This document shows positions 333 through 34,394 of a stretch of 34,797 nt of DNA, in pieces (the stretch's first letter is position 1; each line of letters starts with the position of its first letter). Under the pieces are notes generated by a model, which worked only from the letters and a program-made list of their open reading frames with translations, was not told the DNA's origin and searched no databases. Origin of the DNA: a virus. The DNA is taken from IMG/VR virus record IMGVR_UViG_3300042563_002205, positions 1-34,797 of that record, one strand, 5' to 3'. Made by a program: the position numbers and the translations under genes.

Positions 333-662
333 TCAATAGAAGTAACCTTGAAACTCACAATCTTTTGGCCCTTCTTGCGTATAGTACCATTTATTGACGT
401 TCTCAACCAAGTTAGGAGACTTGAACTTTTTACCACTGAATGCTAACGTAATTCCTTCCGACCTGTCTGATTCTAGACCATTCATTTCTGCCAGTAACTC
501 ATAGAAGTCTTTACCTCCAAAATCACCATAGCCATTGTAACTAGGTTCAAACCATTTATTGCCTTTATCATCGAGCATCCATACTCCAAAGGTTGGCATA
601 TCAGAATGACAATTTGCAATTGATCTACCTGTGTCTTGTGTTTTCCAACTAAAAAATCCCAT
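333..662 (-). CDS. Conserved phage hypothetical protein, 109 aa (starts MGFFSWKTQDT)
   Basis: The N-terminus MGFFSWKTQDTGRSI followed by a PTFGVWMLDDKGNKW segment and a YGDFGGKDFYELLAEMN motif is a pattern I associate with small uncharacterised proteins carried by diverse phages and mobile elements; no activity is known to me. The start is clear: ATG at 662 is preceded by a run of ten A residues and GTT, the same leader found at 1828, 7458, 7602 and 12823. It lies in a run of small genes downstream of the promoter at 891-921. Confidence 0.75.
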   Translation of the reverse strand: MGFFSWKTQDTGRSIANCHSDMPTFGVWMLDDKGNKWFEPSYNGYGDFGGKDFYELLAEMNGLESDRSEGITLAFSGKKFKSPNLVENVNKWYYTQEGPKDCEFQGYFY

Positions 663-942: not shown

Positions 943-1656
943 TCAAATATCAAAGTTTTTTTTCCTTCTACGAACTGTTCTAAACACTTCTGCCGATGTA
1001 AAACCTACATCAATACCATTAGCCATTGCAGTAATTCTAATATGCTCTTCTCTTCTCATGCCAGTATACTCAACTTTGTAACATTTCATTGCTGACACTT
1101 TTGCTGCTATCTCTTCTTCTATCAATTCTACATACATATCTGGTACAAAACGAACAGAGTTATGATTACTACTGCTCAATACAGGAAATTCATAAAGTGC
1201 ATCAACAAATGTATTCGGTTGCATTCTACACGCTACTCTTACACACTTACTGACAATTTCATGATCCTTATTGATATCATGTTCAAAATGAGTAAACACA
1301 ACTTGTGGCCGAAATTTTTCTAGATGCAGTTCGATTTTCTTTGTGATATCAATTTCTGTGTACTCATCTAATCTCTGATCAGCAAACTTTTCCTTGAATA
1401 CTCCCCAGTAGCCAAAACTTTGACTATCTTCTTTTGGTCCCGCACCAAGATGAACTGATGCATCATAACTCTGCTTCATCAATTGGGTGAAGTCGGGGAT
1501 TTCTCCCCTCTCCATTGTTCCAAGTGTCATAATCAATACACCTACATCCCAACCTTCTGATCTCATTTTCTTAATTGTGCCTCCACAACCAAGTACTTCA
1601 TCATCATTGTGTGCAACTATTACTAGTGCCTTTTTTTTATTTTCCATACAATTCAT
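943..1656 (-). CDS. PIG-L family N-acetylglucosamine deacetylase
   Basis: The protein (237 aa) shows the two signatures of the PIG-L/LmbE zinc deacetylases: AHNDDE at residues 15-20 (family consensus AHPDDE) near the N-terminus and H-F-E-H-D-(3)-D-H at 123-132. These supply the metal ligands and catalytic Asp. Known members remove acetyl from N-acetylglucosamine on lipids, mycothiol precursors and antibiotics; some phage members occur in DNA-hypermodification clusters. Here it lies downstream of a glycosyltransferase and methyltransferase, so deacetylation of a transferred sugar is a reasonable inference. An internal ATG at 1647 would give a more typical N-terminus (MENKKKALVIVAH); both starts overlap the upstream gene. 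The Pro to Asn change in AHPDDE is a mild oddity. Confidence 0.85.
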   Translation of the reverse strand: MNCMENKKKALVIVAHNDDEVLGCGGTIKKMRSEGWDVGVLIMTLGTMERGEIPDFTQLMKQSYDASVHLGAGPKEDSQSFGYWGVFKEKFADQRLDEYTEIDITKKIELHLEKFRPQVVFTHFEHDINKDHEIVSKCVRVACRMQPNTFVDALYEFPVLSSSNHNSVRFVPDMYVELIEEEIAAKVSAMKCYKVEYTGMRREEHIRITAMANGIDVGFTSAEVFRTVRRRKKNFDI

Positions 1657-1828
1657 TATACTTTAGTACTAATTCTGTCTCTCCTAGATCATCAGTCCAT
1701 AATTCATGAACTTGTTTCTGATCGATTAACTGAATTACTTTTAACATTCCAGATCCGAATGCTATTTCATTCGAATTTCCACAAGCAATTAACTCCTGTG
1801 CTTCTTCTCTCAATTCTTTGATTGTCAT
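1637..1828 (-). CDS. Hypothetical protein, 63 aa
   Basis: The frame begins at ATG 1828 (MTIKELREEAQELIACG), directly after nine A residues and GGT, matching the A-run leader of other genes; an upstream TTG at 1852 is less likely. It overlaps the end of the RarA-like gene region closely and its stop lies inside the start of the PIG-L gene, so the three are probably translated together. Helical with no recognised family. Confidence 0.65.
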   Translation of the reverse strand: MTIKELREEAQELIACGNSNEIAFGSGMLKVIQLIDQKQVHELWTDDLGETELVLKYNELYGK

Positions 1829-1838
1829 ACCTTTTTTT

Positions 1839-2453
1839 TTATTCTTGATCAAACAAACTTTTATTTGGATTGTGTAAAGATACCTTTTTCTTCTCTTTTT
1901 TCCATTGGTACATCTCTTCCATCTCCTTGTGAAGTTTCATTTCTTCATCAAACATATCAGCCGGAATGTTATTGAGTTTGGCAGATTCATCAAAGAAGAA
2001 TTGATCTCCTCGACCTAACTTTTTACCAACATCTGTAAATTGGTCGTAACAATAATCATGTATTGTTACAGGGTGAATCATGTGCCTTAAATCTACATAC
2101 TTACAAAATAGATTGTCAATTACTCTTGACTTTGGACTTCGTACTAACAAGATTAGTGCATGGCAAAAAACGAGATGTGAAGCACCTTCTCGCTTATCTT
2201 TTTGGAAATCAGTGAAAGTTTGATACAATGCATTGACTTGAACACATGCTAGTGGATTAGCAAGACCTACATCTTCCGAAGCAATGACTCGCATTCGATA
2301 CCACGCATACTTATGAAATCCCGAAATCAGCATTTCGGTTCCCATATACATTGCTTCATGTTCCATGCCTCTACGGACATACTTTTGAAAGGCACTGACT
2401 ACATGATAAAGATTGTAGCCACCCTTCGTTGTTGGTGTAAAATTTTCACTCAT
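1839..2453 (-). CDS. RarA/MgsA C-terminal domain-like protein without the ATPase
   Basis: This 204-aa protein resembles the C-terminal part of the AAA+ protein RarA/MgsA/WRNIP1: the segment HKYAWYRMRVIASEDVGLANP (about residues 45-65) matches the family pattern in which an Arg-rich helix leads into A-S-E-D-(I/V)-G-(L/N)-A. No Walker A or B motif is present, so the ATPase core is absent. In RarA this region forms the tetramer and contacts single-stranded DNA-binding protein at stalled forks. A stand-alone phage copy could act at replication forks or interfere with the host protein; that is inference. The ATG at 2453 is chosen over 2474 because it follows the promoter-linked AACAAAACAAG leader. 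Its promoter is at 2476-2507. Confidence 0.65.
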   Translation of the reverse strand: MSENFTPTTKGGYNLYHVVSAFQKYVRRGMEHEAMYMGTEMLISGFHKYAWYRMRVIASEDVGLANPLACVQVNALYQTFTDFQKDKREGASHLVFCHALILLVRSPKSRVIDNLFCKYVDLRHMIHPVTIHDYCYDQFTDVGKKLGRGDQFFFDESAKLNNIPADMFDEEMKLHKEMEEMYQWKKEKKKVSLHNPNKSLFDQE

Positions 2454-2475
2454 ATTACTTGTTTTGTTATACAAG

Positions 2476-2507
2476 TAAATATACGGAATAATTGTGTTTA
2501 TACCAAA
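2476..2507 (-). promoter_or_regulatory. Promoter upstream of the RarA-like gene
   Basis: TTTG (2507-2504) and TATATTTA (2483-2476) are 20 bp apart on the minus strand, with CCG just before the -7 box, like the TCG of the other early promoters. The -33 box touches the stop codon of the methyltransferase gene, so it separates that operon from the RarA-like/PIG-L genes. Confidence 0.65.
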
Positions 2508-3155
2508 TTATTTTTTCATTATTTTCAGAAAAAATTCAAACCTGTTACAATCTGGCCGACTGATCAACTCCAACTTATTGTAACCCATATTGCTAATATC
2601 TTCTAATAATCTAGGCAGATTGAAATAAAACTGTTCCTTATCCTTGAAGTCTACATTATCTTGGAAGGCATTAAATATCAACCCCCGATTTGCCATTTCA
2701 AGCATGCTCTTAATACTCTCCAGTGCTTCTTGATAATACTCCTCCGGATCCGCATCTAACTTCAAATAATACACTCCTATGCAAGTTGCATAATCAAATT
2801 GGTAAAATCTTTTGAAATCTTCTTCATTCTTCCATTTTTCTGCAAATGACTGGATACTTTCATTCACTACACGACAACTAGAATAATTCCTTAATCTTAA
2901 TTGCAATCTTTCGAAAAAAAATGACATTGGTTCTATTCCAATGTAGCGGTTCTTATTGAAGCCGAAAAAATTATGACAATTGATTCCATTTCCAGCACCA
3001 AACTCTGCAATGATTATCTCTTTGTCTTGCAACAAACTACTTGTAATCTCATATCTTGTTTCACAGGCTTCTTCATTTTCCCAAGCACAACCTAATACTG
3101 ATTCGCCATGCTCTTCATTTTTTTCCTCATAGAACTTCTTTAGAGACTTTTTCAT
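2508..3155 (-). CDS. Class I SAM-dependent methyltransferase
   Basis: The protein (215 aa) has the glycine-rich SAM-binding motif EFGAGNG at residues 51-57, an acidic residue at the end of strand 2 (GIEP, about 73-76), and a motif-IV-like FDYATCIGVYY. There is no DPPY or Pro-Cys motif of ordinary DNA adenine or C5-cytosine methylases, so methylation of a sugar, amino group or small molecule is more likely than classical base methylation. ATG at 3155 overlaps the glycosyltransferase stop (TGATG), implying translational coupling and a shared pathway. The true substrate cannot be read from sequence. Confidence 0.8.
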   Translation of the reverse strand: MKKSLKKFYEEKNEEHGESVLGCAWENEEACETRYEITSSLLQDKEIIIAEFGAGNGINCHNFFGFNKNRYIGIEPMSFFFERLQLRLRNYSSCRVVNESIQSFAEKWKNEEDFKRFYQFDYATCIGVYYLKLDADPEEYYQEALESIKSMLEMANRGLIFNAFQDNVDFKDKEQFYFNLPRLLEDISNMGYNKLELISRPDCNRFEFFLKIMKK

Positions 3156-3895
3156 CAAAACGGGATTTTTAGTGTTCTTTCATACTGGTGCTGCAATGTT
3201 CGTAATGCAGTAGACTTCTTTAATTCAATTGCATCACCAAACTTTGCTTTTAATTCCAACAAATCTTTCTTTTCTGATTCCAGATCCCTAATGTCTGCCA
3301 TGCCTCCTTCACTCTTGAAGGTACCTCCTTTGCTACAAAAGGCAAATCTTTGGTCAATATATGTCATTCTATTGTAGTGGGCATTTAACGCACTCAAAAA
3401 ATAATCTGTGGATCCTATTACTTCATCAGGCATTTCATCCATCTGAAATCCTTCAAGAAATCCCATTTGTCCTCCAATTACAAATCCAGTCAGTTCCAGT
3501 GGTCTCAATCCTTTGTACATCAATGGCTTATTCATCTTACCAAACCCAAAATATTTTACTCCAAGTTGTTTTGCTACATCTGCATTACTTTGGATTAAAT
3601 AGTAAATGTCCAACGGATCCACGTGAGTTTTCTTTTCTTCATCATACAAATTCAACAAGTAATCCATATCATCATCCAACATAAATACATTCGGATAATG
3701 CTTGTATATCCATTTTACTTTTGCTGCATAACCTATAACAGTGTCCGGATGCGAAATAATTTCACAATCAACATATTGCTTATATTCCTCGACTTGACTT
3801 TCTGGAACACAAACTGCACAATTTGCAACTGTCTTATGAGTAACAATTGTCTTTGCTCTCTTATGACTTAAAATTATCAATTTACAAATTTCCAT
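3155..3895 (-). CDS. GT-A type glycosyltransferase, TET-associated (TAGT)-like
   Basis: The 246-aa protein begins with a beta strand and basic loop (IILSHKR, 8-13), has a nucleotide-binding beta-alpha region and the acidic DxD-like motif LDDDMD (73-78) expected to hold a metal and UDP-sugar. The layout, and the C-terminal R-T-L-K-I-P-F ending, resemble the TET-associated glycosyltransferases that decorate hydroxymethyl-cytosine in phage DNA. No TET/JBP dioxygenase or hydroxymethylase is in the window, so the acceptor is uncertain. ATG at 3895 is used (an upstream GTG exists); it overlaps the ParB-like gene by 14 bp and the methyltransferase by 1 bp. A surface-glycan role is the alternative. 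Confidence 0.7.
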   Translation of the reverse strand: MEICKLIILSHKRAKTIVTHKTVANCAVCVPESQVEEYKQYVDCEIISHPDTVIGYAAKVKWIYKHYPNVFMLDDDMDYLLNLYDEEKKTHVDPLDIYYLIQSNADVAKQLGVKYFGFGKMNKPLMYKGLRPLELTGFVIGGQMGFLEGFQMDEMPDEVIGSTDYFLSALNAHYNRMTYIDQRFAFCSKGGTFKSEGGMADIRDLESEKKDLLELKAKFGDAIELKKSTALRTLQHQYERTLKIPF

Positions 3896-4523
3896 CACCT
3901 TCTACGAATTTAGACATGAACTCTTTGTAAGGCACTACATAACCTTTTCCTATCTTATCTTTCTCGTTCTTGTAGTTCTTGTAGGACTTTAACTTATCCA
4001 CTCCCAGTGTAGTTCGTAATCGCAAATTATCCATATCATTTTCGCAAACTATCAACATGTAATCATACTTCTCGTTGAACTTTGGTACAATCGGATACTC
4101 GCAGTTATTATTGTCAAACTGCTTCAATGATCTTTCAAATTCACCTTCAATTTTTTCCAGTTCTGATCTATTGAATCCTATCTCCTCTAATTTTTCTTTT
4201 GAGAACATTACACCTAACTTCTCGAAGTCAAACATACCAGCACTTCGATTCATTCTGATATTTAATTCTTTCTCATCTTCCTCTGACAGATTCAATTCAA
4301 TTACTGGTACTGATTCATGTCCAAGTTCTTTCCACGCTCTCATTCTCTGATGCCCACTAATGATTATATTTTCCCTTCCGGTAAACGTGTTAACTAATAC
4401 AGGATCCAAGAAGCCATATTTTTTCAAACTGTCTCTCAATCCTTTGTAGTCTTTCATATTCAACTTTCTAGGATTGTAATCTGCTCCTTTTAGTTCGGAG
4501 ATACTTCTTTCTTTGATGTTCAT
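3882..4523 (-). CDS. ParB/Srx-type N-terminal domain protein
   Basis: About 213 aa. Residues 1-85 carry the ParB-like fold: ISELKGADYNPRK, a helix KGLRDSLKKYGFLDPVLVN, and the signature GHQRMRAWKELG followed by VPVIELNLSEEDEKELNIRMN. There is no clear central helix-turn-helix for parS binding, so this is not a partition protein; such ParB-domain proteins commonly accompany phage DNA methylases and the IbrB family, and the fold has CTPase or nuclease-like activity in some members. ATG at 4523 overlaps the previous stop as ATGA; a longer frame from 4607 would add a low-complexity Asn/Ser stretch and overlap the membrane gene more. It is translationally coupled to the glycosyltransferase. Its link with a PAPS-reductase protein (33543-34394) mirrors the IbrA/IbrB pair. 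Confidence 0.8.
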   Translation of the reverse strand: MNIKERSISELKGADYNPRKLNMKDYKGLRDSLKKYGFLDPVLVNTFTGRENIIISGHQRMRAWKELGHESVPVIELNLSEEDEKELNIRMNRSAGMFDFEKLGVMFSKEKLEEIGFNRSELEKIEGEFERSLKQFDNNNCEYPIVPKFNEKYDYMLIVCENDMDNLRLRTTLGVDKLKSYKNYKNEKDKIGKGYVVPYKEFMSKFVEGDGNL

Positions 4524-4741
4524 AGTAGCATCCATATTACTGCTAAAATTATTGTTATTACTGTTACTCTTAAAAAACCTAGCAATCCAAAATTTGGCTG
4601 ACACCACATCGGAAATGCAGGATGAGCATAATGCGGTGCAATCAATCCAGATGCTATTCGATCCAACAAATACACCGCAAATACCAACGGCAAAAAAGTC
4701 AATCCTATTACCAATCTAACTACTTTCATTGTCTTATTCAT
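4520..4741 (-). CDS. Small membrane protein, 73 aa, two predicted segments
   Basis: From ATG 4741 the product starts MNKTMKVVRLVIGLTFLPLVFAVYLLDRIASG, a basic N-terminus and one membrane helix, and ends with a second helix (FLRVTVITIILAVIWMLL). The middle is Pro/His/Trp-rich (HYAHPAFPMWCQP). No family is recognised. It heads the ParB/glycosyltransferase operon and overlaps the ParB-like start by an ATGA, so it could tether the pathway to the membrane or be unrelated. The frame is open further upstream to ATG 4804, but that would place a terminator hairpin inside the gene. Confidence 0.6.
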   Translation of the reverse strand: MNKTMKVVRLVIGLTFLPLVFAVYLLDRIASGLIAPHYAHPAFPMWCQPNFGLLGFLRVTVITIILAVIWMLL

Positions 4742-4753
4742 AATTTTTAATCT

Positions 4754-4790
4754 AAAAAAAACAAGGTGATATACATAGTACACCACCTTG
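4754..4790 (-). terminator. Strong intrinsic terminator before the ParB/glycosyltransferase operon
   Basis: Positions 4762-4790 fold on the minus strand into a 13-bp hairpin without mismatch (two G-U pairs) and a 3-nt loop, beginning CAAGGTG and ending CACCTTG, followed by eight T residues (4761-4754). It ends only 13 bp before the ATG at 4741. Confidence 0.8.
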
Positions 4791-4826
4791 CTCAAACAAA
4801 ACATAGCACATGAATGAAATGGCTAT
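4754..4826 (-). ncRNA. Candidate short RNA or attenuated leader (about 70 nt)
   Basis: A consensus promoter (4831-4861) would start a transcript near 4825, and a strong terminator hairpin with eight T residues lies at 4754-4790, giving a predicted RNA of about 70 nt. Either this is an independent small RNA or it is a leader whose terminator is sometimes read through into the membrane protein/ParB/glycosyltransferase operon starting at 4741. A 19-codon frame (ATG 4811, stop 4752-4754; three Cys) runs right through the hairpin, as in leader-peptide attenuators. Inference from sequence only. Confidence 0.4.
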
Positions 4827-9187: not shown

Positions 9188-10554
9188 TAGAAAGGATTAT
9201 CTTCATGGAAACCTTTATACACCGGAACCTGTTGAAACTGATGTCTTTGATCTCCATCTTCTGACCATCGACTTGTTTTCAGATCTACATTGAATTTCAA
9301 AATTGGAGTATCTCCTTCTCGATTCTTTGCAATAATAAACTCTGCCTTACCTTCTGTGCTTTGTCCATTTTCATCAGTATCATTTCCATAATATTCCGGT
9401 CTATGTAGGAAGGCAACAATACTAGCATCTTGTTCTATCTCACCAGAATCTCGAAGATCCGGCAGTATTGGTCTACTACCACTTTTACCTGCATCTCTTC
9501 CTAACTGTGCTAGTGCAATACAAGGTATCTTCATATTTTGAGTTATGTACTTGATTCCATTACTTGCTTCCGTTACTTGCTCATATCTACTTCTTCCTCT
9601 TTCTGGTGTAACTTTCTGTAAATAATCTACAATGAATACCTCTACTTTATCCGAATGCTTTAACTCGGTCAACTTCATTTTCATTTGTTGGATTGTCTGA
9701 CTACCTTCATACAAAGTAATGTTCTTCATTTCCGGTAACGATATTGCCCGATGAATCAGCATCAATTCTTCGGGATTACATTGTCCATACTTTATCTTGT
9801 TGGAATCTATTCCTGTCAAGTTTGCAATAATTCGCCTCATGATCTGATTATTGCTCATTTCTAGATTGAAGTAAGCAACCTTTCGATTTTCTCGAATTGC
9901 TAATTGACAAAGTGTTGCTACTCCAAACGAAGTCTTACCCATTGCCGGTCTTGCTCCAACAACCATCATATCAACTGGCTCCAAGATTACATCTTTGTTC
10001 ATGTTCTTGAAACCTAGTAATATGCCTCCTAAATCTCCAGTTTTTGCTCGATCATGCCGGTCTAGGACATCTCGAATAACATCTGTCAATCCATTTTCTA
10101 CAACATATACTTCTCTGTTGAAATTGACTATTGCTTGATTCAAAGTATCTATGTACTGATCGAAATCAATATCATCTGCTGAAACAATTCTATTTATCTC
10201 TGACAATGATTCTTTTGCACCTTTGCTAACATAATTGTACCTAATCATTTCTACAACATGCCCTACATTGTGATAATCAATCCCAGTAGGCAAACTTGTC
10301 AATTTTGAAGCATAGATTGTAATTTTCTTACCTCCTTCCTTCTTCATTGAACAAACACCGACAGTTAGTATATTTACTTCCTCTCCAGTGTCGAACAACT
10401 CTGACATTATCTCATACAACTTAATCTGATCATCTGTTTCTAACCATTCCGGTTTTATGATCCGATACAATTTTGCCGATTCCTCTTTCCTTGTTGACAT
10501 GATTATACCAAACAACAATTCTAACGGCTTACTCGATATTTTCTCGAAACTCAT
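9187..10554 (-). CDS. dnaB: Replicative DnaB-type DNA helicase
   Basis: The 455-aa protein has the DnaB N-terminal helical domain (EKISSKPLELLFGIIMS...) and a RecA-like motor: Walker A GARPAMGKTS at 200-209, Walker B FIVDYLQ near 294-300, and the DnaB-specific IALAQLGRDAG and DLRDSGEIEQDASIVAFLHRPEYYG segments. It is the ring helicase of phage replication. Length is typical for the family. It overlaps the helicase-loader-like gene by 4 bp (ATGA). No primase gene or primase motif appears in the window, so host primase may be recruited. Confidence 0.95.
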   Translation of the reverse strand: MSFEKISSKPLELLFGIIMSTRKEESAKLYRIIKPEWLETDDQIKLYEIMSELFDTGEEVNILTVGVCSMKKEGGKKITIYASKLTSLPTGIDYHNVGHVVEMIRYNYVSKGAKESLSEINRIVSADDIDFDQYIDTLNQAIVNFNREVYVVENGLTDVIRDVLDRHDRAKTGDLGGILLGFKNMNKDVILEPVDMMVVGARPAMGKTSFGVATLCQLAIRENRKVAYFNLEMSNNQIMRRIIANLTGIDSNKIKYGQCNPEELMLIHRAISLPEMKNITLYEGSQTIQQMKMKLTELKHSDKVEVFIVDYLQKVTPERGRSRYEQVTEASNGIKYITQNMKIPCIALAQLGRDAGKSGSRPILPDLRDSGEIEQDASIVAFLHRPEYYGNDTDENGQSTEGKAEFIIAKNREGDTPILKFNVDLKTSRWSEDGDQRHQFQQVPVYKGFHEDNPF

Positions 10555-30937: not shown

Positions 30938-32320
30938 TTATACTAAATTCCTAAACATGGACTGAACAAATATAGATAATCCTGCTAAACAGTCAGGTGC
31001 ATCATCATGTTTATTTTTTCCTTCCTTACTGAAACTCACCACATTCTGCATGAATTGTTCACTATCTGCGTTATCATTCTTCACAAAATTCATATTGTTC
31101 ATAATATATCCTGCATTCATAATGATCCGAGTAATCTTGTTCGTGCTATTGTAGACCTGCAATACTTTCGTTGGTGTCATTGTCTGCAATTGTCTAGCAA
31201 ACATGGCTCCCATTGAATTACTTTCCACTCTGACATAAGATACATTCCATTTCAGTAACTTCTCCGCACACATCGGAATTGTTATATCCGTATTGTCTCG
31301 GTTGAACAAGTAATCTACAATGTACAATTGCTTTTCTATTACCACTGCTACTGCCATTGAAGTAAAGTCTTTACCCATATCAGACACGTCAATGTATGCT
31401 ACTGCTCCCTCGATTCTGGACACTTCATTACCAGCAACATCAGTAGTTTTGCTAATTATTGCAAACTCTTCCTTGCTAACATATTTCAGTTCTCTAAACA
31501 AACGACCTTGAACATCAATTGGTTGCTGCATATACTCGGCTAACCATATAGAATTTTCTGTTCTCTTCTTCTTTTCTAGATACTCATCTGTTGTCATTAC
31601 TGATTCACAGAAGGTTTCTCCATGCTCATCTAATGCAGGAACAATGATACTTTGATCATAGATACCATCATCAATTTGCTTACCAATTACATCTCTTATG
31701 GACCATCTAGTTCCTATGTCAATTCTAGCACAACCAGTTTCAAAACGTGAATCATGTGTTGCTTCTTTCCATTGCAAGATCCTATCATTCTGTGTATCAG
31801 AGAGTGCATCTTCCATACCTCGATACAAATCATCCGTAATAGCCACATTACTCGCACCAAAACCAATAATTGTTCCTCCAACACCTGCTCCAAAGTATCC
31901 TACCATCTTCGAATGATTAGTATTCCAACCTTGCAAGTTTGCCTTATCATCTGACAATCTTACATTAGGAAACACTTGTCCATACCGGTCATTCTTTAAG
32001 ATTGCACGTACATCATAACTGAACTTGATATACAAGGTTGCAGTACAAGTGTTTCTCATTACTGACTTATCTGGATTTCTTCCCAGTGTCCACGCACAAA
32101 ACAATGAAGTTATGTAAGACTTACCTGCTCTTGGTGGCATACTCACAGACAATGACTTGATTGTCTTTTCTTCAACCTTTTGGAAGGCATCGGCAATTTC
32201 TTTAAGGAACTCTCTCGTTTCGAAAAACTCTCTGTCCATATACAAACAAAACCGCCAAAAGTCTCTTCTAGCGATTTCTTGTCTTAAGTATTGCTTGACT
32301 GCTTCTGTCCTATTACTCAT
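30938..32320 (-). CDS. terL: Terminase large subunit
   Basis: 460 aa with both domains: ATPase with Walker A P-P-R-A-G-K-S (62-68) and Walker B VAITDDLY (159-166); nuclease of RNase H type with D311 (AYIDVSDMGKD), E366 (RVESNSMGA) and D439/D440 (HDDAPDCLAGLS). It packages DNA into the prohead. Overlaps the small subunit gene by 8 bp. Confidence 0.96.
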   Translation of the reverse strand: MSNRTEAVKQYLRQEIARRDFWRFCLYMDREFFETREFLKEIADAFQKVEEKTIKSLSVSMPPRAGKSYITSLFCAWTLGRNPDKSVMRNTCTATLYIKFSYDVRAILKNDRYGQVFPNVRLSDDKANLQGWNTNHSKMVGYFGAGVGGTIIGFGASNVAITDDLYRGMEDALSDTQNDRILQWKEATHDSRFETGCARIDIGTRWSIRDVIGKQIDDGIYDQSIIVPALDEHGETFCESVMTTDEYLEKKKRTENSIWLAEYMQQPIDVQGRLFRELKYVSKEEFAIISKTTDVAGNEVSRIEGAVAYIDVSDMGKDFTSMAVAVVIEKQLYIVDYLFNRDNTDITIPMCAEKLLKWNVSYVRVESNSMGAMFARQLQTMTPTKVLQVYNSTNKITRIIMNAGYIMNNMNFVKNDNADSEQFMQNVVSFSKEGKNKHDDAPDCLAGLSIFVQSMFRNLV

Positions 32321-32693
32321 CCTCTTTCAACAACTCTAGCATTTCTTGTGTAGATAATCCACTCAAATCAGGCATATCTTTCTTGATTTCCACTTCTTGT
32401 TTCTCAACATATCCTCTGTGCTTGGCTTTGGTCTTTAAGAAAAAGATTATCTCTGCAGTCTTGCCTTCTTGAATGTTGGACATTAACTTGGTCTCAACTA
32501 GGTCAATGATAGCCTCCTGTTGCTCTTCACATACCTTGTCAAAGTCCTTATCATCCTTTCTCCACTCATAGTAAGTGTTTCTGCTTATGCCTACCTTTTT
32601 ACAAGCATGACTAATGTTCCCTGCTGAATTTAACAGTGCTTCTGCAAACACATCTTGCAGTTGTTTCCTTTTTTTAGGTGTCATATTTGTCAT
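32313..32693 (-). CDS. terS: Terminase small subunit
   Basis: 126 aa. N-terminal helix-turn-helix (KQLQDVFAEALLNSAGNISHACKKVGISRNTYYEWRKDDKDF, about 10-52), then oligomerisation helices and a C-terminal tail LSTQEMLELLKEDE. It recognises the packaging site and hands DNA to the large subunit encoded next. ATG 32693 overlaps the upstream stop (ATGA); a second ATG at 32684 is possible. Confidence 0.85.
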   Translation of the reverse strand: MTNMTPKKRKQLQDVFAEALLNSAGNISHACKKVGISRNTYYEWRKDDKDFDKVCEEQQEAIIDLVETKLMSNIQEGKTAEIIFFLKTKAKHRGYVEKQEVEIKKDMPDLSGLSTQEMLELLKEDE

Positions 32694-32876: not shown

Positions 32877-33500
32877 TTACTTCATTAAACTGTCTATTAT
32901 GCTATATCTAATGTCCATATTGCACATGTGCTTGTATTTCTCTACTTCATGTGTAAACGTAATCATTTTTAGTTCAACTCCAATTTCTTGCAGGTATTCG
33001 GGTGTTACTCCGTAGTTTAGGCAGTTACTTCCGGTCAGATATTCTGTTGCCTTACAAATTTGCAGTATTTCTTTGATCTCTTCCTTTCCGGTTACTGGGT
33101 TGCTGGTCAAATCTGATCTCTTGACTATCTTTATATCCTTTCCCAAGTACTTAACCATTGCCTTGTAGTGTTCTACCATAAACTGGGCATAACTGGGTCC
33201 TTCGTACTCGCATAACCAATCGTAAAATGCAAACTCCTTTCCGTAGTACTGCTTGATTTTGTTCTTGTGGTCTTGCTTAAACTCTCCAGTGATTTCTGTT
33301 TCTGCAATTGATTTTCCTTTGGTTACAGGTATTGTCAGCCACTTATCCACTCCATTGCACCTCAATTTTGTTCTGTTTTCGTAATCTCGTGTGTTTATTA
33401 CAGTCTGATCTAACAAAACTACTAGATCTACATTACTCATTCTGATCAAATGCTCCATGTTGGGCAAGTATCTTGGTTGCGTAATCATTACTCTTGTCAT
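32877..33500 (-). CDS. WbqC-like family protein
   Basis: 207 aa with the WbqC pattern: Q-P-R-Y-L-P (8-13), LLDQTVINTRDYENRTKL (29-46, the D...NR core), WLTIPV, a middle YYGKEF helix, YLTGSNCLNYG (the Y-L-S-G...Y motif), and a C-terminal YSIIDSLM like the family's L-S-I-I-D. WbqC proteins are found in O-antigen and other glycan clusters; their reaction is not established to my knowledge. In this phage the gene is the first of the late operon, coupled to terminase, which is unexpected for a host-type glycan enzyme. Could add a group to a sugar-modified substrate; inference. Confidence 0.85.
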   Translation of the reverse strand: MTRVMITQPRYLPNMEHLIRMSNVDLVVLLDQTVINTRDYENRTKLRCNGVDKWLTIPVTKGKSIAETEITGEFKQDHKNKIKQYYGKEFAFYDWLCEYEGPSYAQFMVEHYKAMVKYLGKDIKIVKRSDLTSNPVTGKEEIKEILQICKATEYLTGSNCLNYGVTPEYLQEIGVELKMITFTHEVEKYKHMCNMDIRYSIIDSLMK

Positions 33501-33519: not shown

Positions 33520-33549
33520 CAAAACTACTAAACAAATTTTTTTTACAAG
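33520..33549 (-). promoter_or_regulatory. Probable late-operon promoter
   Basis: CTTG (33549-33546), 18 bp, TAGTTTTG (33527-33520) on the minus strand, about 20 bp before the WbqC-like start. It lies in the only gap upstream of the terminase genes. It lacks the TTCG early-promoter motif. Confidence 0.5.
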
Positions 33550-34394
33550 CCACAATGCCCACTATCACATTCATCAAAGTCCTCCAATGCTAGTTCTATT
33601 TGCATTTTGTGGTTCTTGATCTTATCATATGTGATATGCTTCTTCCATGTGCCTTTACCTTCTCCTCCTTGATTATTCTCTTGCTTTCTAAACCACTCCA
33701 TTTTATTCGGATGCAGTTCAAACATCTTGTTTAACAATATCTCATTTCTGTGAAAACAACCTACACAATTATTCATGTAGGCAAATCTAACAGGCTTACC
33801 ATTCCAAAATTTTACAATATGATCCTTGTATATCTGATCATTTATCAATGGAAATGCGGGCTTTTGCCACGCAAACTCTTGCCATTTATTCTTTCCACTA
33901 TCATGTTTACTGACAGTTGCTTTTATCACAGATAGTCCTTCTTCATTTGTTTTGGCTACCATTCTATCTGCTCTATTCAATTCATTTGCTCTAAATCCTA
34001 TTCTTGTCTCTACTGGTTCGCGTACATTTTCATACCACCATTCGAACATTGGTACTAACTTCATATTAGTTGTGCAATATCTTGACATCAAGTTTGGAAG
34101 CCATCCACCTTTATCTCTGATCAAATCTTCAAATGACTTCCCAGTAACCCAAGTAATTTCGGATCCAATAAACTGTTCAAGGTCAAACATTGTGTGAATG
34201 ATTATATCATCTTCCAGTGTTCCGATAAATTCAGTTCCTATTTTGTCTGACACCATCTGTCTTAATTTAGCATCGGGAAACATACAACTTGTGTCATTTG
34301 TACGAACCAACGAAAAAAGGTTAACATCTGCCTTATAGTTTGCGGCTATATAAGCAGATGTCTGACCTCCGGATATGCTATTTACTGTTTTCAC
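33543..34394 (-). CDS. PAPS-reductase-family PP-loop protein (DndC/IbrA-like)
   Basis: 283 aa with the ATP-pyrophosphatase PP-loop S-I-S-G-G-Q-T-S (6-13), a SRYCTTNMKL segment (104-113) and a pair C210-V-G-C213 (NNCVGCFHRNE), with two more Cys in the last eight residues. This resembles the sulfotransferase-like PAPS reductase families that include DndC (DNA phosphorothioation) and IbrA. The start is GTG at 34394: no ATG is available before the PP-loop. An in-frame stop lies just upstream. A ParB-domain protein at 3882-4523 would be the IbrB-like partner. Substrate unknown. Confidence 0.8.
   Translation of the reverse strand: MKTVNSISGGQTSAYIAANYKADVNLFSLVRTNDTSCMFPDAKLRQMVSDKIGTEFIGTLEDDIIIHTMFDLEQFIGSEITWVTGKSFEDLIRDKGGWLPNLMSRYCTTNMKLVPMFEWWYENVREPVETRIGFRANELNRADRMVAKTNEEGLSVIKATVSKHDSGKNKWQEFAWQKPAFPLINDQIYKDHIVKFWNGKPVRFAYMNNCVGCFHRNEILLNKMFELHPNKMEWFRKQENNQGGEGKGTWKKHITYDKIKNHKMQIELALEDFDECDSGHCGL

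Follow-up and report, generated by a model that had tools for sequence, protein, structure and literature searches.

We found that a viral stretch of 34,797 nucleotides (hereafter the window) carries a gene cassette whose function, on balance, we take to be phage-encoded, post-replicative DNA glycosylation with optional amino-sugar tailoring. Probably an amino sugar is attached to the phage's own DNA and then edited, hiding the phage from bacterial defences. The minus-strand cluster at 943–4523 contains genes for a ParB-fold protein, a TAGT-family glycosyltransferase (GT), a SAM methyltransferase (MT) and a PIG-L deacetylase, and profile scores and motifs confirmed all four at the positions given in the preliminary description. 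The set is larger than described there, with a stand-alone RarA/MgsA C-terminal domain (RarA_C, 1839–2453) and a WbqC-family protein (32877–33500) having been missed.

All cassette genes lie on the minus strand. Translation of the ParB-fold protein (ORF 3882–4607) was assigned to the ATG at 4523, giving a gene at 3882–4523 which overlaps the GT gene (3155–3895) by 14 bases, counting from the GT ATG. The GT stop and the start of the MT gene (2508–3155) share one base (TGATG), so the mutual overlap previously claimed for these three genes was correct. Directly upstream of parB, a small ORF (4520–4804) encodes a membrane-protein-like product with no Pfam family, conserved in the related contig L003; its stop and the ParB start overlap in ATGA, and it is possibly the first gene of the operon. 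Downstream of the MT gene follow the RarA_C gene, a small ORF (1637–1852) with a similar counterpart in the relative L002, and the PIG-L gene (943–1656). The WbqC gene is situated at the opposite end of the record, next to the genes for the small and large terminase subunits (30938–32693, minus strand), a boundary found just downstream of the cassette here and in unrelated phages. Since in L002 and L003 PIG-L is followed by a few intervening genes and then WbqC, the record represents a circular permutation and, judging by this synteny, its two ends are near each other, with the order ParB-GT-MT-RarA_C-PIG-L-...-WbqC-TerS-TerL. The record is a near-whole permuted genome, possibly incomplete, and the DNA-level similarity search against phages gave no useful match.

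The GT falls in a DNA-acting family. It scored 42.1 bits against the TAGT family PF20691 (cut-off 27.5), a cut-off also exceeded by the GTs of L003 and the divergent L030, and its best PHROG was phrog_842, the beta-glucosyl-HMC-alpha-glucosyltransferase. The LDDDMD motif reported earlier was confirmed in this GT-A-like protein, and in the alignment D74-D75-D76 were invariant with T6 ggt and the GTs of L119 and L030. Identity to T6 ggt is 23–25%, with the DDD motif and flanking residues conserved; T6 ggt itself belongs to PF20691 and is believed to attach the second glucose to T6-type DNA (PMC13390438). The predicted GT structure was poor (pLDDT 53), and its comparison with BFVD gave three matches with E < 0.001, headed by a beta-glucosyl-HMC-alpha-glucosyltransferase (T6-type alpha-GT) and followed, at weaker E, by named TAGTs. 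The fold search of the PDB returned nothing below E 0.001 and no decisive match among those listed. No relative of the GT or the MT was found by tblastn in 50,697 phage records, and no useful match was obtained for the GT in genome contigs or, together with WbqC and a PAPS-reductase-like protein, among PDB sequences. Altogether, Pfam, PHROGs, T6 ggt homology and the structural model support a TAGT-type enzyme, as first proposed, with predicted transfer to DNA. The refuting outcome named in the preliminary description, a better match of 3155–3895 to surface-glycan enzymes, did not arise in the structure search and family scans, and the PF20691 score and BFVD matches do not support a surface-glycan assignment of the GT.

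The partners of the GT also point to DNA. The ParB_N profile scored 39.6 bits (cut-off 26.3), the C-terminal region (YPIV..F.EK) is conserved among the TAGT lineages, and the ParB–GT gene overlap recurs in three of them (this phage and the divergent L030 and L119). The RarA_C ORF matched PF12002 (MgsA_C/RarA C-terminal) with 40.5 bits (cut-off 27), and no AAA+ match was detected in its 211 amino acids. Its profile matches the type found in phage KarBoss (probability 98). PIG-L is present in 6 of the 8 phage records with KarBoss-type RarA_C versus 26 PIG-L records in all 50,697, a count which ignores phylogenetic relatedness and starts from KarBoss, chosen for its PIG-L. By conserved linkage, we infer a core composed of the ParB-fold protein, the overlapping GT and the stand-alone RarA_C; RarA_C looks like a core member, and MT and PIG-L look optional.

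Comparison between phages is the strongest line of evidence. The core arrangement recurs upstream of the terminase genes in three viral lineages: that of this phage, that of L030, L029 and L117 (GT identity 37–40%) and that of L119 (44%). A fourth lineage, L028, likewise has the TAGT and RarA_C genes, and its contig begins inside the GT gene. Among cultured phages, some infecting Vibrio, Stenotrophomonas, Rhodobacter and Rhizobium bring these helper families together with another type of GT. In the Vibrio phages VH2_2019 and V-YDF132 the run consists of PIG-L, two WbqC genes, MT, GT, ParB, TerS and TerL, in KarBoss of RarA_C, PIG-L, epimerase, aminotransferase, MT, GT and ParB, and RcZahn, DLP3 and RHph_Y1_11 also pair cassette helper families with other GTs. 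A 283-aa gene of VH2_2019 was rejected as a PAPS-reductase relative; its alignment with RarA_C (hhalign probability 28) is at most suggestive of a relationship. DLP3 DNA resisted 15 of 15 restriction enzymes (PMC7326821).

Among the tailoring enzymes, PIG-L scored 78.5 bits against PF02585 (cut-off 28.2), and its metal motifs (AHNDDE ... DH) are intact, as previously noted, with H16, D18, D19 and H132 invariant across eight phage homologues. Its best equivalog was BshB1 (TIGR04001), at 46.5 bits far under the cut-off of 182.5. WbqC (PF08889, 84.5 bits, cut-off 21.3) is kept in synteny in L002, L003 and L028 and, within cassettes, was seen only where PIG-L is also present. In Foldseek its model matched BshC best (E 0.014, probability 0.89); the VIA comparison (Z 7.8, rmsd 4.4, 186 residues aligned) was near noise (Z about 8), pantothenate synthetases were similar, and no sequence link between WbqC and BshC was found. 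These weak fold matches make WbqC a candidate HUP/Rossmann-like, ATP-using ligase. Records L009–L011, labelled "phage" and of human-faecal origin, contain PIG-L or WbqC within bacterial-type gene sets and serve only as context.

The MT has a class-I SAM motif (EFGAGNG) and lacks, as the preliminary description had recognized, a classical DNA-methylase motif: neither PC nor (D/N/S)PP(Y/F/W) occurs in its sequence. All its profile matches were sub-threshold (generic Methyltransf_12/23 and, weakly, CmoB with E 0.006). It is conserved in L003 and L028 and was not detected in L030 and L119; used as single-sequence queries of viral contigs, MT and PIG-L gave no useful match. The MT probably acts on the sugar or a sugar substituent. 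The PAPS-reductase-like gene (33543–34394) lying between WbqC and PIG-L was considered for thiolation or base activation and rejected as a cassette member: L028 keeps the cassette without it, and of the 80 loci retained from its scan, 3 are contigs of this phage's lineage, while the remaining 77 include some with a ParB match and none with TAGT, RarA_C, PIG-L or WbqC. The gene is probably unrelated to the cassette.

For the DNA substrate, the sugar, the order of the steps and the WbqC reaction, we infer the following scheme. ParB and RarA_C would tether the GT to newly synthesized phage DNA, and the terminase-adjacent placement would fit modification prior to packaging. The sugar transferred by the GT would be an N-acetylhexosamine, in the simplest case GlcNAc taken from host UDP-GlcNAc, and PIG-L would then strip the acetyl group. 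In an ATP-driven step following BshA-BshB-BshC logic, WbqC could ligate the amine thus exposed to a small carboxylic acid or an amino acid, and the MT would cap the final product. The order proposed earlier, GlcNAc addition, deacetylation and then methylation or other elaboration, is a plausible hypothesis; that interpretation is partly supported, by the TAGT-type GT and by the clustering of PIG-L, MT, GT and ParB in other phages, one of them with restriction-resistant DNA.

Known phage DNA glycosylation generally needs a hydroxyl made first by a hydroxymethylase or TET. Perhaps a host enzyme or an unrecognized TET or hydroxymethylase makes a hydroxymethyl-pyrimidine that the TAGT modifies, as in T-even and TET phages; we consider this route possible, though not probable, and as a sub-case of DNA glycosylation it shares probability with the favoured explanation. 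The TAGT family of the GT and the position of T6 ggt adjoining a dCMP hydroxymethylase gene speak for it. Tet_JBP, the oxygenase family whose linkage gave TAGTs their name, matched in no record, but the control was equally silent and T6, a PF20691 member, also gave no match, hence the absence of TET is not established. Conversely, PF00303 (thymidylate-synthase-type hydroxymethylase) was found neither in this possibly incomplete record, which bears out the earlier remark that no hydroxymethylase is visible, nor in any of seven complete genomes that carry related cassettes, with T6 and IME392 matching as positive controls, and no oxygenase family appeared among the window ORFs scanned. The suggestion of an acceptor made outside the window is thereby weakened. 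A bolder, tentative reading is that a widespread undescribed module (ParB, GT and RarA_C beside the terminase, with interchangeable GT folds) sugars standard DNA without hydroxymethylase or TET, and that here a bacillithiol-like PIG-L/WbqC relay deacetylates and conjugates the product. If such cassettes modify DNA, they would represent an unrecognized route of sugar attachment and a new kind of protection from restriction and CRISPR. From the module, testable functions can also be proposed for two poorly understood families, WbqC and the stand-alone RarA C-terminal domain, along with a reason for the unexplained restriction resistance of DLP3 DNA.

Conversion of the host surface, with GT, PIG-L, WbqC and MT altering O-antigen or capsule and excluding other phages, seems unlikely. 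WbqC and PIG-L do occur in bacterial surface-glycan and polysaccharide clusters, and PF08889 takes its name from an O-antigen-locus protein; in the DLP3 paper, LPS modification was the role suggested for that phage's GT (PMC7326821). Against this, the GT belongs to a DNA-acting rather than a surface-enzyme family, ParB and RarA_C are tightly linked to it beside the terminase across unrelated phages, no flippase or acyltransferase family was found among the window ORFs scanned, and DLP3 DNA itself is restriction-resistant. Decoration of capsid or tail proteins would suit the adjoining late genes and is very improbable, given no protein-glycosyltransferase family match and the DNA-linked ParB and RarA_C. 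Least probable is a bacillithiol-like thiol or amino-sugar small molecule for host takeover: the BshB1 and BshC resemblances favour it, but PIG-L falls far short of the equivalog cut-off, the GT has no BshA-type match, and ParB and RarA_C would be left unexplained.

Compared with known systems, the proposed DNA glycosylation cassette shares with T6 ggt the PF20691 family, the DDD motif and the phage origin; T6 pairs ggt with the dCMP hydroxymethylase gp42, not found in this record, whereas here the GT is linked to ParB, RarA_C, PIG-L, MT and WbqC. The Stenotrophomonas phages DLP3/DLP5 and KarBoss of Vibrio have PIG-L, MT, GT, ParB and a RarA_C-like gene clustered at the terminase, but their GT is not a TAGT and an epimerase and aminotransferase replace WbqC. 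VH2_2019/V-YDF132 resemble it in the single run of genes and differ in the GT-B enzyme (Glycos_transf_1), the paired WbqC genes and the only suggestive RarA_C relation. The bacillithiol pathway, with GlcNAc transfer, PIG-L deacetylation and ligation on the amine (PMC4360819), offers the proposed logic, with another GT family and malate instead of DNA as the acceptor. Finally, the CmoA/CmoX carboxymethylcytosine phages share post-replicative base modification (proposed here) with ParB neighbours, which adjoin CmoX-type cytosine modification genes (PMC12783734); unlike in those phages, no C5-methyltransferase match was obtained here, and the MT bears only a weak resemblance to CmoB.

The ParB (3882-4523), TAGT-family glycosyltransferase (GT, 3155-3895), SAM methyltransferase (MT, 2508-3155) and PIG-L deacetylase (943-1656) genes of the preliminary description were recovered at these positions on the minus strand. 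The GT scored 42.1 bits against the TAGT profile (PF20691; cut-off 27.5), PIG-L 78.5 bits (cut-off 28.2) and the ParB_N match within ParB 39.6 bits (cut-off 26.3). MT carried the SAM loop EFGAGNG, with all family matches sub-threshold. ParB overlaps GT by 14 bases, counting from the ATG of GT, and a single base is common to the stop codon of GT and the start codon of MT (TGATG). PIG-L kept its metal ligands, its best NCBIfam equivalog being the bacillithiol deacetylase BshB1 at a score far under cut-off. The ParB C-terminal region (3885-4100, minus strand; YPIV..F.EK...SYKN), outside the Pfam ParB_N match, is common to TAGT-linked ParBs. The stop of a small membrane-protein-like ORF (4520-4804, minus strand), an odd partner in a DNA-modification operon, overlaps the ParB start (ATGA); this ORF is kept in the related viral contigs L002 and L003.

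The four-gene set proved incomplete, further members lying elsewhere in the record. In L002 and L003, whose GT is 95% identical to that of the window, the order ParB-GT-MT-RarA_C-small gene-PIG-L-DUF-PAPSR-WbqC-TerS-TerL is unbroken, and the last genes of this run sit at 30.9-34.4 kb in the window. Such a gene order suggests that the window record represents a circularly permuted phage genome of about 35 kb. RarA_C, a stand-alone RarA C-terminal domain, lies at 1839-2453 and WbqC at 32877-33500. Between PIG-L and WbqC a conserved short protein (333-662, minus strand; MGFFSWKTQDT...) is kept in L003 and L028 and matched no Pfam family above cut-off. The replication and recombination genes were ordinary (DnaB-type helicase, ERF, RadC, NinG), and no polymerase or nucleotide-metabolism families were found among the window ORFs scanned.

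The PP-loop/PAPS-reductase-like protein PAPSR (33543-34394, minus strand; SGGxTS and C-terminal CDSGxC) probably does not belong to the cassette. Searching viral contigs with an alignment of four PAPSR sequences gave 409 relatives, most of them lacking a modification cassette, and 80 loci were kept. Three of these belonged to the window's own lineage; TAGT, RarA_C, PIG-L and WbqC were absent from the other 77, several of which had a ParB match. The 5.3-kb contig L028 kept TAGT-MT-RarA_C-PIG-L-WbqC-TerS-TerL without PAPSR.

ParB-TAGT-RarA_C recurred in L029, L030 and L117 (GT 37-40% identical to the window), directly followed by terminase genes in the first two, and in L119 (GT 44% identical), with terminase a few genes on. 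PIG-L was not found in the 42.9-kb record of L119. ParB overlaps GT in the L030 and L119 lineages as well. Given this recurrence and the PIG-L-less L119, the core seems to consist of ParB, GT and RarA_C, with PIG-L, MT and WbqC as apparent additions. The TAGT profile also scored over cut-off in a bacterial control genome, Bacteroides ihuae, possibly from a prophage with a related cassette.

The same helpers accompany other glycosyltransferases. Vibrio phage VH2_2019 has PIG-L-WbqC-(283 aa)-MT-WbqC-GT-ParB-TerS-TerL, with a GT of the GT-B fold (Pfam Glycos_transf_1), and V-YDF132 has an identical layout. KarBoss carries RarA_C-PIG-L-epimerase-aminotransferase-MT-GT-ParB and then terminase-like genes; RcZahn shows the same run up to GT, with a ParB-domain gene nearby. 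DLP3 has PIG-L-WcaG-WecE-MT-...-GT-ParB-...-TerL and, about 6 kb upstream, a gene resembling RarA_C, RHph_Y1_11 RarA_C-epimerase-aminotransferase-GT-ParB-...-TerL without PIG-L, and Kitkat RarA_C, with GT and ParB further on. TAGT was not found in any of these seven cultured genomes. The window-type and KarBoss-type RarA_C profiles matched (prob 98, E 3e-13); the 283-aa gene of VH2_2019 matched RarA_C weakly (prob 28). PIG-L was present in 6 of 8 phage records with KarBoss-type RarA_C and in 26 of 50,697 records overall, a hypergeometric value of 3e-19 that ignores relatedness, counts DLP5 twice and includes KarBoss, chosen via PIG-L; leaving out KarBoss, 4 of 6 distinct RarA_C phages had PIG-L. 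WbqC was seen in related cassettes only alongside PIG-L. A DLP3 gene annotated 'Erm' (9638-10318) inside the sugar cluster might methylate a DNA-linked sugar, instead of or besides rRNA.

The GT model was poor (mean pLDDT 53), its N-terminal half being fair. Its top BFVD match was a Klebsiella phage beta-glucosyl-HMC-alpha-glucosyltransferase (E 3.9e-6), one of only three below E 0.001, the other two being unnamed in the tables; a named TAGT came next (E 0.003). A PDB search gave no match below 0.001, and a second PDB listing gave GT-A and nucleotidyltransferase folds within background range (Z up to 7.4, 116 residues, rmsd 4.0). Of the earlier interpretation, the TAGT type of the GT stands by profile and BFVD match; the interpretation as a whole is partly supported and has been extended.

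T6 ggt, itself of the TAGT family, probably places the second glucose on DNA of the T6 type (PMC13390438), and ParB-domain genes often lie near another phage cytosine-modification system (PMC12783734). DLP3 DNA resisted 15 of 15 restriction enzymes, from which its authors inferred modified DNA; this concerns one phage, with the resistance assigned to no gene (PMC7326821).

No hydroxymethylase was detected: the thymidylate-synthase-superfamily profile found no gene in the window record, in L003 and L030 (both partial), or in the seven complete genomes that carry related cassettes (KarBoss, DLP3, VH2_2019, RcZahn, V-YDF132, Kitkat, RHph_Y1_11), whereas it did score in T6 and IME392. The TET profile matched no record, its controls being equally silent. 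In E. coli phage IME392 (8998-14630), PIG-L has a thymidylate-synthase-like gene in its vicinity, so pathways built on a hydroxymethylase may use PIG-L too.

We read the cassette as a probable variant of phage DNA hypermodification; if the DNA is glycosylated without hydroxymethylase or TET, the novelty would be greater than that of a hypermodification variant. The WbqC model (pLDDT 73) had BshC as its top Foldseek match, near background (E 0.014, prob 0.89; VIA Z 7.8, rmsd 4.4, 186 aligned), as were its similarities to enzymes of the HUP fold, chiefly pantothenate synthetase (Z 7.5-8.6, 105-125 residues); no sequence link between WbqC and BshC was seen. In bacillithiol synthesis GlcNAc is transferred by a glycosyltransferase and deacetylated by BshB, after which BshC probably couples cysteine to the amine (PMC4360819). 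By analogy, GT would attach GlcNAc to DNA, PIG-L would deacetylate it as BshB does, WbqC might perform a BshC-like addition to the freed amine and MT could cap the product, the proposed order of steps being that of the bacillithiol relay, here on DNA-bound GlcNAc.
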